Assembly: GCA_002787775.1 (NCBI GenBank)
Contig: PCUW01000040.1
Span: 1 to 64,000 of the forward strand
DNA: 64,000 bases
From: Bdellovibrionales bacterium CG12_big_fil_rev_8_21_14_0_65_38_15
GTDB taxonomy: Bacteria > Bdellovibrionota > Bacteriovoracia > Bacteriovoracales > Bacteriovoracaceae
Reading direction: 5' to 3'
Shown: positions 50,843-58,887 of the stretch, one piece after another
How positions within the stretch are numbered: position 1 is the first letter of the stretch
How the letters are laid out: every line of letters begins with the position of its first letter
The notes under the pieces: model-generated
Told to the model about the DNA's origin: nothing
Databases searched by the model: none
Seen by the model: the letters and a program-made list of their open reading frames with translations, nothing else
Program-made: the position numbers and the translations under genes

Positions 50843-51304
50843 CTACTTTATAAAATTAAAATACTGAGCTTCAAGAGCATCAAACTCAAGTTCAGTTCCC
50901 GAATCATTTTTCTTAATGGGTGCTTTTTTGTTAGAAACTTCCTGAATTCTTAGAAGAACTTTAATCTCCTCGTCAGCGTCAGGATCAAAATAGGGAGCGT
51001 AAAAGCTTTCAATTGAAGCATTTGCTGGCAAAAAGCCTTCAACCATATTCATCTGCTCAATCATAATTTGCGGGCAGCTTTTATAAATAATCTTCGCCTT
51101 TTGATTTAGAGCAGTAACGAGATTAATGAGCTCTCTAACGCCACAAGAATTAATTAGGTTTACACCTGAAAAATTCAAATGAAATACGTTCGCCTCACAA
51201 GATGTTAATGCCTCAAAATTAGCATCTTCATCAATTCGTCCCGTCAAAATGACTTCAGCAACATTATTTTCTAGATTAACTTTAATATCCAGACCTGAAC
51301 TCAT
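50843..51304 (-). CDS. STAS-domain protein
   Basis: 'HLNFSGVNLINSCGVRELINLV'. Confidence 0.75.
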   Translation of the reverse strand: MSSGLDIKVNLENNVAEVILTGRIDEDANFEALTSCEANVFHLNFSGVNLINSCGVRELINLVTALNQKAKIIYKSCPQIMIEQMNMVEGFLPANASIESFYAPYFDPDADEEIKVLLRIQEVSNKKAPIKKNDSGTELEFDALEAQYFNFIK

Positions 51305-53748
51305 GAAATCTCCCTAACCTTGAAATGAAAAGAGGTGACTCTTCCCTTAAAATTCTTGTATCGCTTTGTAGCTTCTAAAACACATTTAATCGTAGTTGAT
51401 TGATTCTTATGAATATCAATCCAAATTTGATTAGTGGATTGATAGACGAGGTATAAGCCTAATCCGGCTCCACGACCATCTTGCTTTGGAGATTGTGTTT
51501 CTTTTGCTCTTTTAAAGGCCTGTAATATCTGGTCTTTTGTCAGCATACCCTTGTTGTCTTGGACTTCAATCATAATGAAAGAATCATCGACACTGAGGTT
51601 AACTGAAACGATGGAATCTTTATCGCTAAAGGCATTAGTAACAAGCTCGTCTCCAATTAAAGAAAGATAGTCTCTTGGACTTTGAAACCATCCAGGAAAT
51701 TCTTTTGTTTTTAAAAAGAGATCAATTTCATTTCTATATTCTTCTAATTTCTGGCCCTGCCAAGAAAATAGTGGGGTTCCTATTGACGGAGCATTGAGTT
51801 CAATTTCGTGACTTAAAATTGGTGAGTTATGTCCAATTAAATGATCAACGTTTGTATTCTCACAAAGAAAGTCGATACTTTCTTTTGCATCGAGGTGACT
51901 AATGACAGTGTTGTTATTAATAAATTCAATGTCTTTAGTCGTATGGGTAGAAACCAAACGACAAAGGACTAATGTAACATCGTCATCACTTGGTGTGCCG
52001 CCACTAAAAGTCAGAGCTTCACTACTTATAGCACTTTGCCATAACTTAAGATTAGAATTCTTATTCTGTGTAATACTGGTGTGGAACTTACGATCACCAT
52101 ACGGCTTATTTTCTTTATTTGTGTTTTCAACAATTCCATCGGTATACAAGACGAGAAGGTCACCTTCTTCATATGAAATCTGCTTATTCTCAAAGGTTGA
52201 ATGATGCTCTTTTCCTAGGTGAGCAGATGGCTCACTTAAAAGAGGAATAAGATCTTGCCTAGAAGGTTGATCGATTTTCGCACTCAAAAGATAAGGAGGG
52301 TTGTGAGCTGCATTTGACCAAGTTAGTGTTTTCGTCTCTTTATCAACCACTGTACATAGCATTGTCATATACAATTGTTTACCAGCACCGCAGATGGCCT
52401 TATTAAACCACTCAAGCATGGCATTGGGCTTAACTATCAGTTCTGGTTGTGTCTTTAACAATTCTTCTAGCGTATGTAGGGCGCAATTAGCTGTCGCTGT
52501 AATCAGAGCAGCAGGAACGCCATGTCCAGTTGCATCAGCGATAAAAATAGCACTTTTACCGTTTGATTCTATATATCCCCACCAATCTCCGCCGCATTCA
52601 GATGCTGGCGCATAGAAAGCCGAAAACTCAGCACCTTGAATAGTTCCTTCAAAATTGGGAAAAAATGAATCTTGAACTAATTTTGCAACTTCAACTTCTC
52701 GCTCGAGGCGTACTTTCTCTTTCATTTGCTCCATGAATTGAACAATTTTTTTCCCCATATAATTAAAGGAATCAGAAAGGGCACCAATCTCATCTCTAGA
52801 CTTTACTTCAACACTATTTTCAAAATCTCCAGCGACAAACTTTTGTGTACCTTCAAAAAGTGTTTCTAAAGACTTGGTTAATGATCTTGAAAAAAGAATA
52901 CCGATGATAATGGCTAAACTTAAGAGGAAGACAGCGTAAATATAAGACTGCTTAATCAGTTTATCGGCTACTGAAAAAGCTGCTGATTTTTTTATGATAG
53001 ATATTGAAATCGGATTCGTAAGATTTTCTTGTTCAAAAGAGATAAGGCTTAATTGGTCGTTGAAGTTTGCTTCGAAAACACCTTTTTTGATGCCTTTAGC
53101 GAGATATTCATCTTTAAGCTGCTTTAAAATACCTGGGGCTGATTGATCTGTTAATGTTTCAAATCCTGGAGACATGATTAGATTATCTATTTCGTTATTC
53201 TTTTGAACTAAGCTTTCGACTAGAGAAATTTGTGCAATTTGTATGGATTCATTGAGTTTTGTTACGATGGTAATAACGGGTTTATTTTTAAAAAAGTAGA
53301 AAAATGTTTTGTCAGCTGATGAAGTTATTTGTCCCCAGTTTTGATCAATCGCTTTATCAATATCCTGCCTAGAAAGAGATAATTTAGATAAGCCGGTATG
53401 ATCAAGGATTCCAGTCGTAAATTTATTTTTTGAAAGATCAAAGATACGGTAATCAATAAAAGAGGGAGAAGAATCAAAAATATTCTTAATATCCTCACTC
53501 TTAGTAAGTAGTCCCATGATATGTAATGTTCTTTTTGATTCTTGAATTGTATTTAAAATATCTCTTGAGATAGACCTTGAAGAATCTTGAACTGAATTAA
53601 AAATATATGCAGATTTATCTTCGATGAACTTAGTTAAAGCATATTGTGCATAAGCAGCAAGGCTTATAAGTAATACCAATGAGAATAAGCTTATAAGCTT
53701 GAGTTTCAAAGGAAAGAGAATAGGTCTTTGAAGTTGTTTAATTTCCAT
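51301..53748 (-). CDS. RsbU/SpoIIE-type PP2C phosphatase with HAMP and C-terminal HATPase domain
   Basis: Two TMs, HAMP ('RSLTKSLETLFEGTQKFVAGDFENSVEVKSRDEIGALSDSFN'), 'ASECGGDWWGYIESNGKSAIFIADATGHGVPAALIT', C-terminal 'SLIGDELVTNAF...GRGAGLGLYLV'. Confidence 0.92.
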   Translation of the reverse strand: MEIKQLQRPILFPLKLKLISLFSLVLLISLAAYAQYALTKFIEDKSAYIFNSVQDSSRSISRDILNTIQESKRTLHIMGLLTKSEDIKNIFDSSPSFIDYRIFDLSKNKFTTGILDHTGLSKLSLSRQDIDKAIDQNWGQITSSADKTFFYFFKNKPVITIVTKLNESIQIAQISLVESLVQKNNEIDNLIMSPGFETLTDQSAPGILKQLKDEYLAKGIKKGVFEANFNDQLSLISFEQENLTNPISISIIKKSAAFSVADKLIKQSYIYAVFLLSLAIIIGILFSRSLTKSLETLFEGTQKFVAGDFENSVEVKSRDEIGALSDSFNYMGKKIVQFMEQMKEKVRLEREVEVAKLVQDSFFPNFEGTIQGAEFSAFYAPASECGGDWWGYIESNGKSAIFIADATGHGVPAALITATANCALHTLEELLKTQPELIVKPNAMLEWFNKAICGAGKQLYMTMLCTVVDKETKTLTWSNAAHNPPYLLSAKIDQPSRQDLIPLLSEPSAHLGKEHHSTFENKQISYEEGDLLVLYTDGIVENTNKENKPYGDRKFHTSITQNKNSNLKLWQSAISSEALTFSGGTPSDDDVTLVLCRLVSTHTTKDIEFINNNTVISHLDAKESIDFLCENTNVDHLIGHNSPILSHEIELNAPSIGTPLFSWQGQKLEEYRNEIDLFLKTKEFPGWFQSPRDYLSLIGDELVTNAFSDKDSIVSVNLSVDDSFIMIEVQDNKGMLTKDQILQAFKRAKETQSPKQDGRGAGLGLYLVYQSTNQIWIDIHKNQSTTIKCVLEATKRYKNFKGRVTSFHFKVREIS

Positions 53749-53785: not shown

Positions 53786-56227
53786 ATGAACAAGAAGACA
53801 CTTTTTGACGAAGGGAGAATGAAAAGTTCCAAGTTAGACTGGATATTAGTCGGATTTTTTTCCATCGTGGCCGTATGGAGCGCTAAAATTTTATACTGGC
53901 CATCATCGCTAGACTCGTCTGGCACGGGCTCTTTCGCTAAAATTGAAAGCTTGAGTAATATTGTTAAGAGTAAATCAGTTGGAAATTTAGCTTGGAATGA
54001 TGTGCAAGTAGGACAAACCTTTAAGCGGAAAGATTTACTTTTTACCTATGATAAATCACGCGCCAAGTTAATTCTTGAGCGCGGTGAGAACCTTGAGCTC
54101 TTGCCAAATTCCTTAATCGAGCTTGATCAATTCTCCGGTGGCTTAGCCATTCAAGTTAAAGAGGGACTAATTTATCTTGATATTAAAGAAGGTGAATCAG
54201 TTAAAGTGAATTTAGGTGGCAAGCAGATTTCTTTAAGTTCAAAAAATGCAAAGGTGAAGTTATCCACTTCAAATGGAATTTCAAAACTTGAAACTTCTAA
54301 TGGCGATGTATCAGTTCAGTCTTCAACTGGTGAAACTTTTAAACTAGATCAAGATAACCAAATCGAAGTTAATGATTCTAGTGAAATTAAACTTAGTGAA
54401 AAGTTCGTAAAGCTTCTTTCTCCAAAAGATGGAGCGCAGATATCTATTGATGAAGATGCCATTGAAGTTGAATATCAATGGGAGTTTACTAGCCAGTCTT
54501 ATCGCACTAATCCTGAGATAGAGATCTCGCAAAGTTCAATATTCGAATCAGAAAAATTGATCGATGATGATGATGATATTGGAGTTGGAACATATTTTTG
54601 GCGTGCCGTTAATGATGAAGGTGTCGTTTTATCAAGCACCAATACTTTTGAAATAATAAAAAATCAAAAGATTGAAAAGATCGATCCAGCTCCTGTTTTA
54701 CAACTTCTTACCCCTGCTGATTTGGCCGAAATAAATGTAAGTCGCCCCGGAGATAATGTTGAGTTTAGCTTTTCTGGGCAAGCAATCATTGAAATTGCCA
54801 AAGATCAGAAATTTGACGACATTGTTGTTTCAGCTGACGTAGACAATTCATTCTTATGGAAAGTTGAAAGCTTGGGGCGTTTTTACTGGCGAATCAAAAA
54901 GGATTCAATTTATTCAGAGATTAGAGAAATCAATATTAAGCCTGGTGCTATTTTACCCGCACCAGATCTGGAGCGAGCTCCAAGTGAGTTAAAACTTATC
55001 CCACTGAAACCTCAAAGTTTTATTTATTCATTAATAAGCAATGCCTATGCTCAAGATTTTTCCGCTGAGTTTGAATGGAGTGAAGTTGATGGTGCACAGG
55101 CTTATATCATTGAGATCTTTGCTGATAAAAATCAAAGTAAAATTCTCAGTAGACAAAAAGTTAATGATAACCAATTCATTTGGATTGGAGCACCTCTAAG
55201 ACAAGTTTGGTGGCGTGTAAAGGCGATTGATCAGTGGCAGCGCGAGGGAGTTCCAAGTGCATTAGTGCAAACGGCGTTAATCCCACCAAATGGTTGGGAA
55301 GAGACAGAGATTGAGCTAGATTCACCAAGGCATCGAAGCGAGTTTAAGCAAAATAATTCCGTAGAATTTGAATGGGACAGTAAACCTGGTGTAAAGGATT
55401 GGATATTTTTATTATCAAAGGATTTAGATTTTAAGAAACCCGTTAAATCTCAAAAAATATCTTCAAATGAAATTGTCTTAAATGATCTGCCGGTAGGTGA
55501 GTGGTATTGGAGAATTAAAGCCTTTGATAGCTTAGGTAGAGAACTTTTAAGTAAAAGAAGAAAAATTATTATAACTGCATTAGATGTCGTTGAGGTGGCC
55601 AAAGAAGAAACAAGAGTGAACGAATATAAACTTAGACTCAATCTAAGGTCTCCTTTTGATATTGATATCGGATTACAAGCTTCCAAGCCCAATTATGAAC
55701 TTAAGAAGGGAAGACAGGATTTTAATCTGACAGGGATGACGGCCAGTGGTTTTAATTTAAATCTATCACGCGAACTAAGTCACTATCGCCTTTTTTCTAA
55801 TCTAAGTTGGGTCAGTGGTAAGGCCTTTGATTCGCTTGGTTACCAAGACAGTTCATTAAATCTTGGTCTTCAAAAAAGTTATGATTGGAATTTATCTTTT
55901 CCTGTTTGGGTTGGAGCTGGTTTATCGCTAAACAGGCTTTCATCTTATGAGCGAGCAGCCAATTCAAATACGTTGTCAGATTCAACGATTTCAACCTTTT
56001 CATTGCACTCATCTTTATTAGCTCAGCCCTTTGTCTGGGATAATAAATATATTGAAACTCAACTCGATCTAAGTCTTCTGGGTCAAATGGCTTTTGGTCT
56101 TCACGCCAAATATTTTGTCGGAAAATGGTTTTATGGTGTTGGTTTTAAAAATCAGACGATTGAAAAAGAAGGTGATTATAGCGTTACGACTTTAATGCTT
56201 CACTTTGGTTATCGTTGGCAGCGCTAA
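53786..56227 (+). CDS. FecR-domain protein with Fn3-like repeats and C-terminal beta-barrel-like region
   Basis: TM, FecR 'DLLFTYDKSRAKLILERGENLELLPNSLIELDQF'; W-rich repeats 'FYWRIK/WYWRIKAFD'; C-terminus 'TLMLHFGYRWQR'; start may be 53819. Confidence 0.8.
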   Translation: MNKKTLFDEGRMKSSKLDWILVGFFSIVAVWSAKILYWPSSLDSSGTGSFAKIESLSNIVKSKSVGNLAWNDVQVGQTFKRKDLLFTYDKSRAKLILERGENLELLPNSLIELDQFSGGLAIQVKEGLIYLDIKEGESVKVNLGGKQISLSSKNAKVKLSTSNGISKLETSNGDVSVQSSTGETFKLDQDNQIEVNDSSEIKLSEKFVKLLSPKDGAQISIDEDAIEVEYQWEFTSQSYRTNPEIEISQSSIFESEKLIDDDDDIGVGTYFWRAVNDEGVVLSSTNTFEIIKNQKIEKIDPAPVLQLLTPADLAEINVSRPGDNVEFSFSGQAIIEIAKDQKFDDIVVSADVDNSFLWKVESLGRFYWRIKKDSIYSEIREINIKPGAILPAPDLERAPSELKLIPLKPQSFIYSLISNAYAQDFSAEFEWSEVDGAQAYIIEIFADKNQSKILSRQKVNDNQFIWIGAPLRQVWWRVKAIDQWQREGVPSALVQTALIPPNGWEETEIELDSPRHRSEFKQNNSVEFEWDSKPGVKDWIFLLSKDLDFKKPVKSQKISSNEIVLNDLPVGEWYWRIKAFDSLGRELLSKRRKIIITALDVVEVAKEETRVNEYKLRLNLRSPFDIDIGLQASKPNYELKKGRQDFNLTGMTASGFNLNLSRELSHYRLFSNLSWVSGKAFDSLGYQDSSLNLGLQKSYDWNLSFPVWVGAGLSLNRLSSYERAANSNTLSDSTISTFSLHSSLLAQPFVWDNKYIETQLDLSLLGQMAFGLHAKYFVGKWFYGVGFKNQTIEKEGDYSVTTLMLHFGYRWQR

Positions 56228-57265
56228 ACTTAAAAACAAAATTAAAAAAAATGTTAAAAATTGATCGCCTGAAGAATTATGATCACTATCAATTGAGCCG
56301 CATCCAGTGGCAAGTTTTCCTTGAAATGAATTGGTAAACAGATCAGAGGTCTCAACGTTAACTCCTGAAGTAATTGTAATACCTGAAGTGTTGATATTTG
56401 AGCCACCGGAAGTTTCAATGCGGATTCGTCCAACACCACCAGCCCCACCAGCGTTGGCACTTGGCCCAACACCCGCAGTTCCACCAGCCAAATTAACAGT
56501 GCCGTTAATATCCACTCCACTTAAAGCTTGAATCAGAATTGTTCCACCAGAGCCGCCGCCGCCGCCGCCAGAACGTGTATCTCCGTTTCCACCATTTCCA
56601 CCATTCGCATTAATTGTTCCGGCAACGCTAATTGAAGTGGCCGATCGTAAAGTTAAGAAACCACCGCCACCACCGCCAACACCTGGTGCATAACTAAAGA
56701 CACTGTCGTCTCCAGCTCCACCAGCTCCACCGCCAGAGCCACCAGCTAGTGAAGAAGAAGAGCTTCCTCCACTACCAGCGATACCACTTCCAGCAGCTCC
56801 TGAAGTACCGGCACTACCGTTACCGCCACCACCTGCTCCGGCGCCAGAAAAAACGACTGAAATTTGACCTGTACCGCCGCCGCCGGGAGTATTTCCATTA
56901 CCAGCGCGGCCACTTCGTTCACCATTACCAATCCCACCAAGGTAACTGCCGCCAATATTTCCACCAGCACCACCTAGAGCTCCACTAGTATCAATAGCCG
57001 CACCATTGGCACCGTTAGCACCGTTGAGTCCGTTTAAACTAATTGAGCCTGTAATGTCGATTGAAGATCGAGACAAAATAACAACAGCTGATTGGCCTGC
57101 ATTAAAAGTAACGGCGCCAGTAATGGTTACGCTATCGCATTGATAGGTTCCACCATTTCCAGCTGCAAACGTGGCGTTAGTACAACTACCAAGAGAGCCG
57201 TTACCAAAATCAATGGCAAACGCCATTATTGGAAAGAAAAGAATGATAAGAGATAATTGCTTCAC
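56192..57265 (-). CDS. Secreted Gly-rich protein
   Basis: Signal peptide (MKQLSLIILFFPIMAFA), 'GGGGGGSGG' repeats, C-terminal hydrophobic segment. Confidence 0.8.
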   Translation of the reverse strand: MKQLSLIILFFPIMAFAIDFGNGSLGSCTNATFAAGNGGTYQCDSVTITGAVTFNAGQSAVVILSRSSIDITGSISLNGLNGANGANGAAIDTSGALGGAGGNIGGSYLGGIGNGERSGRAGNGNTPGGGGTGQISVVFSGAGAGGGGNGSAGTSGAAGSGIAGSGGSSSSSLAGGSGGGAGGAGDDSVFSYAPGVGGGGGGFLTLRSATSISVAGTINANGGNGGNGDTRSGGGGGGSGGTILIQALSGVDINGTVNLAGGTAGVGPSANAGGAGGVGRIRIETSGGSNINTSGITITSGVNVETSDLFTNSFQGKLATGCGSIDSDHNSSGDQFLTFFLILFLSLALPTITKVKH

Positions 57266-57303: not shown

Positions 57304-58887
57304 TTAATTAAGTTTGACGATTTTGATCTGACTATAGACTTCGTTTTCACCAAACCCAGAGGCATAACCAAAACCATAAGCGTGAGAGCCACCACAACGA
57401 TGTTCAAGTCTAATAATCGTCTGCTGCGTCAGGGTAAATGTTCCCTTAAGTACAGACTGAGTCATTGAAGCAGCACCATTATTACTAAAGCCAGTAGCAC
57501 CAACTAAAACAGTCCCACCGCTAATAGAATCGACTAATCTTGTCTTGTGTTGAGAACTTAAAAAAGCTGGAACGATTCCATCAATTTCGTATTTACCTGG
57601 CTCAAGAACAAAATTACTTCCACTAAGACTTACAATGGAAGAATCACCTTCAACAGTATTGAGATCTCTCGTGATCCAAGAACCAGCAGTACAAGCTCCG
57701 CCGTGAACACCTGAAGCCTTAATATCTTTTACGTAAGCAATCGCCGCTGATCCACCACCTGCGCTATCAGGAAGTAAGCTTGCTGCAATTTTTCCATCCA
57801 CGCCAACTTGAACAATTTGACCAGGACCAGTTCCAATATCAACAACAGCATCACTACCTGCCGGACCTTGTAATCCTTGAAGACCCTGTAAACCTTGAGG
57901 ACCCATTGGACCCGCAACACCTGCAGGACCTTGCGCGCCAGTATCGCCTTTATCACCCTTGTCGCCCTTATCACCTTTTAGGCCTTGAGGACCTTGTGCT
58001 CCAGTAGCACCGGCAACACCAGCAGGACCTTGAGGTCCAATCGCACCGGTTGCACCAACTGCTCCCGTAATACCAGCTGGACCTTGTGGACCGACTGGAC
58101 CTGCAACCCCAGCGGGACCTTGCGCACCTGTGTCGCCTTTATCACCTTTTAATCCTTGAGGGCCTTGAGCACCATCTGCTCCCGCAATACCAGCTGGACC
58201 TTGAGGACCAACGGCACCGGCCGCACCGGCAGGACCTTGTGCTCCCGTATCACCTTTATCACCCTTGTCGCCCTTATCACCTTTTAAGCCTTGTGGACCT
58301 ATTGGACCTTGAGCACCAACAGAACCATTCACACCCGCTGGACCTTGTGGACCGGCCGGACCTTGAATTGTTGTCGCCGCTGTATTTTGAACAGAGCCAT
58401 CAGGAAAAATAATACCGTCACCGCTAACTAAGAAACCATCAACGGCCATATCGCCATCATCATTGATAAATGGAATCTGCCCCGCACTCGTTCCGATATT
58501 AACTTCTAAAACACCTTTTTCAGTAATAACTCCACCTGCTTGACCGTTAGCAAGTAAACCAACTCCAGCAGTAATTTCTAGATCAGAACCACCGCCATGA
58601 CTTGGACGATCGATCCAACGATGACCATCCCAAACAAGTTGATCGCCAGATTTATTGCCGCGACCTGGGTTATCCCAATAAGCATATTGCACTGGAACCC
58701 AACGAAATCCATTCCAAGTAATAATCTGTCCTGCCTTAGGACGACGAACTAGCGGTCTAAAAATTTTCGCTAGAGCTGAAGCGATAGATTTCTTGTGATC
58801 TTTATGATCTTTGTGATCATCTTTAGCGCTCACTGTGTGAGAAGTGAGTAAAAGCATCATTGTCATGAATAGGCTTAATGTCTTCAT
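57304..58887 (-). CDS. Secreted collagen-like fibre protein with phage-fibre-like N-terminal and globular C-terminal domains
   Basis: Signal peptide, '[40 protein letters not shown]', 57 uninterrupted Gly-X-Y triplets, ~170-aa C-terminal domain. Confidence 0.88.
57852..58365 (-). repeat. Collagen-like Gly-X-Y coding repeat tract
   Basis: 57 G-X-Y triplets in three modules GPQGLKGDK(n)GDTGAQGPA. Confidence 0.88.

Follow-up and report, generated by a model that had tools for sequence, protein, structure and literature searches.

What does a protein with a collagen shaft and a phage-like tip do in the family Bacteriovoracaceae, and is it a relative of the mosaic adhesive trimer (MAT) fibres of Bdellovibrio? 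The question is raised by a gene in the window, by which we mean the whole stretch of 64,000 nucleotides analysed here. An earlier note, made from the letters of the DNA, had described the gene product as a candidate trimeric adhesin with MAT-like architecture. We call it CLP, for collagen-like fibre protein.

The gene and its orthologues

The coordinates given for CLP in the earlier note were correct: the reading frame lies on the minus strand and starts with the ATG at 58887, which, by our reading, has an AAAGG sequence about 10 nt upstream. The parts that had been noticed previously were also found (Table 1). These are the signal peptide, the two W-repeats (computed positions aa 52-67 and aa 80-95), the tail-fibre-type segment and a C-terminal region with cysteines, which comprises 181 aa after the collagen and contains two Cys residues, C399 and C498. 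The count of 57 uninterrupted Gly-X-Y triplets was exact, and collagen was the sole Pfam family recognised in CLP. Reckoned at 0.286 nm per residue, the shaft would be about 49 nm long. The first part of the fibre segment is homologous to a linker that follows the collagen in one orthologue (44% over 45 aa). The Pfam search of CLP detected neither a C-terminal anchor barrel of the YadA type nor an S74 domain.

Table 1. Coordinates of CLP, its parts and the neighbouring genes in the window
Feature	Position	Strand	Basis or remark
CLP (collagen-like fibre protein, 527 aa)	57307..58887	-	ORF reading; stop codon 57304-57306
Signal peptide, aa 1-21, cleavage VSA|K, without lipobox	58825..58887	-	sequence reading
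Two W-repeats ([32 protein letters not shown]) and spacer	58603..58734	-	sequence reading
Fibre linker segment, aa 102-170, end [12 protein letters not shown]	58378..58584	-	
Collagen shaft, 57 unbroken Gly-X-Y triplets, aa 176-346	57850..58362	-	Pfam PF01391, E 2.8e-27
Post-collagen linker ([33 protein letters not shown]), aa 348-380	57748..57846	-	conserved among orthologues
C-terminal tip domain (CTD), predicted TNF/C1q-like jelly roll, aa 381-527	57307..57747	-	AlphaFold2, Foldseek, viral homologues
GLY, Gly-rich exported protein, C-terminal CGS, TM helix and basic tail	56195..57265	-	38 bp 3' of CLP
RNA hairpin across GLY start codon	57259..57290	-	-20.2 kcal/mol, z -4.8
FEC, N-terminal TM anchor, FecR-like and Fn3-like domains, possible C-terminal beta-barrel	53786..56227	+	
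HAMP-SpoIIE phosphatase-HATPase, divergent from FEC	51301..53748	-	Pfam
STAS-type protein, 153 aa	50843..51304	-	same-sized ORF, same position in relatives
Hybrid histidine kinase, 506 aa	49317..50837	-	same-sized ORF, same position in relatives

The features of CLP are far beyond chance, since orthologues occur in 38 of the 129 genomes of the family, most of them with 25-89 triplets. The exceptions are L067, which has 7 triplets, and three collagen-free outliers (L069, L073 and L074); several of the shorter orthologues are cut by contig ends. The tip domain is nearly always present in a single copy, and the number of 38 carriers is a lower bound because contig ends can hide CLP. In the same-genus genome G113, for example, the contig stops within GLY, the neighbouring gene, therefore the absence of CLP there is uninformative. 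Among 73 good genomes of the family 25 carry CLP. With carriers making up only 38 of the 129 genomes, CLP is not essential to the way of life of the family. Two of the carriers can be named: L003 is an isolate of Halobacteriovorax marinus, L004 a MAG from the Bacteriovoracales. Most orthologues possess, after the signal peptide, a beta-rich domain of about 130 aa with two invariant Cys residues; the CLP of the window, L037 and L039 have no such domain, and in these three its place is taken by two W-repeats and an FPDG segment. According to a quickly built tree the CTDs of the CLP locus are compatible with a single clade; the tree in which they were kept together was the better one, by 39 log units (p-AU 0.94). 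The three collagen-free tips are outlying copies within the family. Two of them, L069 and L073, fall among the viral tips and may be separate copies that came from phages.

The tip domain and the proposed fibre

The suspicion that the tip resembles phage fibres was borne out by sequence comparison: the CTD matched the tail fibre family PHROG_24210 (7e-18) and was 35% identical to tail fibres of Sulfitobacter phages, and Synechococcus phage S-RIP1 was matched by the tip of an orthologue. A search with a profile built from 37 bacterial tips identified 40 viral contigs carrying the domain (29-45% identity), where it terminates fibre-like ORFs without collagen. For none of the 37 CTDs did a Pfam family score above its cut-off, BclA_C and C1q included; this tip-domain family, common to phages, giant viruses and bacteria, is without a Pfam entry.

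AlphaFold2, run on the tip of the window protein as a monomer with viral and bacterial homologues, yielded an all-beta model (pLDDT 95.0, pTM 0.88). Foldseek found 232 chains of solved structures at E <= 0.001, and the best 50 of the 232 were mostly members of the TNF/C1q family. The best matches were the CTD of F-BclA (9h38, 4.8e-7), then the tip of the MAT protein Bd2734 (8okw, 1.2e-6); APRIL, EDA, C1q (1pk6) and BclA (1wck) were further matches, and several of the solved fold relatives sit on collagen stalks. The closest viral models, at a TM of about 0.9, included proteins of the collagen-like type from Fadolivirus and Pithovirus as well as a protein with collagen repeats from an uncultured Caudovirales phage. 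The relatives among solved structures emerged from the fold comparison only; when these structures were searched by sequence, with the CTD by itself or with a profile of it, nothing was returned. As modelled, the tip has the TNF/C1q jelly-roll fold, in agreement with the C1q-like C-terminus proposed earlier. Of the 37 bacterial tips 34 had a pair of Cys residues; of the 29 tips from viruses and other sources a single one did. Because the pair is specific to the bacterial tips, these appear to be an exported version of the domain, presumably stabilised by a disulphide. Collagen repeats together with the same tip domain as in CLP are also found in a protein from Bacteroidota, about 837 aa long, which is encoded by a Sphingobacteriales MAG (L005).

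Collagen repeats depend on trimer formation, which is usually brought about by a cap with the C1q/TNF fold, as in F-BclA, BclA and C1q. The CTD of F-BclA forms a trimer (PMC11952670). Because CLP combines a collagen repeat with a C1q/TNF fold, we infer that it is a trimer, which would assemble into a fibre whose shaft measures 49 nm and whose binding head points outwards. Judging from the signal peptide, the chain would be taken across the inner membrane; three chains would then trimerise via their CTDs, and the CTD trimer would nucleate the collagen triple helix. Anchored to the cell surface by its N-terminal end, the fibre would carry the phage-type tip at its far end, and this tip would bind a ligand on some other cell or surface. 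One may speculate that in this mainly predatory family the likeliest ligands are glycans of the prey envelope, and that GLY and FEC take part in surface attachment, the latter being a guess from their constant company.

Our main reading is that CLP is a surface-displayed, collagen-shafted trimeric adhesin, which works like MAT, BclA or phage fibres, and we put its probability at roughly 0.7. On this reading the probable product is a fibre on the surface, with which the bacterium adheres to other cells, possibly prey. The 57 triplets, the confident model of the tip, its matches among solved structures, the viral homologues, some of them with collagen, the Cys pair of the bacterial tips, the conserved gene order, the single clade and the chromosomal neighbourhood speak for such a fibre; the lack in the window protein of the N-terminal domain of most orthologues and the restricted distribution in the family count against it.

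Kinship with other fibres

It is instructive to compare CLP with the fibres of Bdellovibrio. MATs (e.g. Bd2734 and Bd2439; PMC10769870) are, like CLP, exported and fibre-like, with W-repeat linkers and a TNF/C1q-like tip related to phage adhesins. All 21 MATs of strain HD100 have a common domain of about 130 aa after the signal peptide, and at the C-terminus 13 of the 21 carry an S74 domain and the other 8 a variable adhesive tip (PMC10769870). CLP differs from them in having neither this N-domain nor the beta-helical regions or S74 found in several MATs, in possessing a collagen shaft, and in being encoded by one copy as opposed to 21 paralogues in HD100. We built a profile of the MAT N-domain from seven Bdellovibrio proteins, among them one with a match to the solved structure 8oks. 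The search for MAT domains, proposed as a check in the earlier note, was negative for this domain in CLP and in the source genome (92.7% complete), as opposed to 21 copies in a Bdellovibrio comparison genome (G132). Nor did hhalign align the MAT N-domain with the N-domain of the CLP orthologues (probability 0.2%), and the sequence family of the tip has no entry for G132 among the matches listed. That CLP nevertheless truly belongs to the MAT superfamily, with collagen in place of the usual shaft, would be in line with the likeness of its tip to that of Bd2734 and with the W-repeats, which are also found in long MAT-like Bdellovibrio proteins, including a 1295-aa ORF of G132 where they occur together with the MAT N-domain. 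The W-repeat is, however, a weak, common linker motif, and with the N-domain results we consider membership very improbable and rejected it. Of the resemblance claimed earlier, the fold of the tip and the fibre plan stood, but membership did not: CLP is like a MAT in fold and plan, but it is not one by descent of the defining domain.

A second comparison concerns BclA and F-BclA of Bacillus (1wck, 9h38; PMC11952670), which have a collagen stalk capped by a TNF/C1q-like CTD, trimeric in those proteins. The CTD of CLP shares 15-19% identity with theirs in the Foldseek alignments and gave no match to the Pfam BclA model; moreover, BclA and F-BclA are appendages of Gram-positive spores and their N-terminal anchoring is unlike that of CLP. 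A role in spore clustering has been proposed for F-BclA (PMC11952670). As F-BclA is the closest solved relative by fold, and CLP is encoded by a single-copy gene, unlike the repertoire of 21 MATs, CLP might, as a protein of the surface or the matrix, serve self-aggregation or biofilm formation, comparable to BclA-type fibrils, and not the recognition of other cells. We regard this as unlikely, though worth bearing in mind; the tip family is common to phage fibres that recognise hosts, which argues against it. The tips of Sulfitobacter phages pCB2047-A/C and Synechococcus phage S-RIP1 are 31-38% identical to the bacterial ones. In such PHROG_24210 fibres a signal peptide is not expected, almost all lack the Cys pair, and the fibres examined on viral contigs are, unlike CLP, without a collagen shaft. 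The homology to phage tips could also mean that CLP serves a resident prophage or a tailocin as its tail fibre. However, CLP has a signal peptide, our ORF reading found coaBC- and panC-like genes and no phage genes among its chromosomal neighbours, the locus is one and the same, with the same neighbours, across many genera, and its tips are compatible with a single bacterial clade. Based on the neighbours and the conserved locus we rejected the prophage origin, whose probability we consider close to nil. Legionella Lcl and streptococcal Scl are also exported surface adhesins with a collagen shaft; their similarity to CLP, including the NCBIfam matches, essentially covers the collagen part and falls far under the family cut-offs. 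The preferred reading, a surface adhesin fibre, is best put as follows: CLP has a collagen shaft and resembles MAT, BclA and phage fibres in kind, but does not belong to their families. This placement is well supported, and such a protein is undescribed in the searched literature, where we found no relevant paper on collagen-like proteins in Bacteriovorax or Halobacteriovorax.

Gene neighbourhood and a possible role in prey recognition

The order CLP-GLY-FEC is kept at most loci. GLY is the next gene after CLP in 34 loci, with a usual gap of 26-54 bp. Its C-terminus consists of an invariant Cys (SCG motif), a TM helix and a basic end, a tripartite arrangement which resembles known sorting tags but is without a match in NCBIfam. 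The AlphaFold model of GLY was of low confidence (pLDDT 53) with no usable fold match, therefore we claim no function from it. A hairpin, unrelated in sequence, occurs at the CLP-GLY junction of about 20 of 33 orthologous loci, in some cases followed by U-runs; it may be an attenuator setting the CLP:GLY ratio. FEC is convergent with GLY, their 3' ends overlapping by 36 bp, and its C-terminus is a possible outer-membrane barrel. Homologues of FEC, many of them partial, were found in 112 of the 129 family genomes, often beside SpoIIE, STAS and kinase genes. At the CLP-bearing loci examined, a homologue of the SpoIIE-type phosphatase was present in 31 of 42 (two loci are duplicates). The STAS-type protein is, by its sequence, likely an anti-anti-sigma-like partner.

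The searched papers offer no explanation of prey recognition in the Bacteriovorax/Halobacteriovorax line. CLP is a concrete single-copy candidate for this role, which is present in the Halobacteriovorax marinus isolate and comes with a structural prediction and a conserved set of partners open to deletion and testing. Taken furthest, CLP-GLY-FEC together with the SpoIIE/STAS/histidine-kinase switch could form an appendage that predators of the Bacteriovoracaceae type keep under regulation and devote to recognising prey, and which arose when a phage fibre tip was put on a collagen shaft, independently of the Bdellovibrio MATs. We put this idea forward tentatively and hold it to be rather doubtful; if true, a predatory bacterium would have come by a phage-type tip along a second route, apart from that of the MATs.

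Because the FecR-type protein and the SpoIIE/STAS/kinase block are also present in relatives without CLP, the regulators may belong to FEC and not to the fibre. In four of the CLP-less relatives (L256, L264, L265 and L271) a lipoprotein-like protein of about 770 aa is encoded between GLY and FEC, in which we recognised, by our own reading, VWA-like and RCC1-like sequence.
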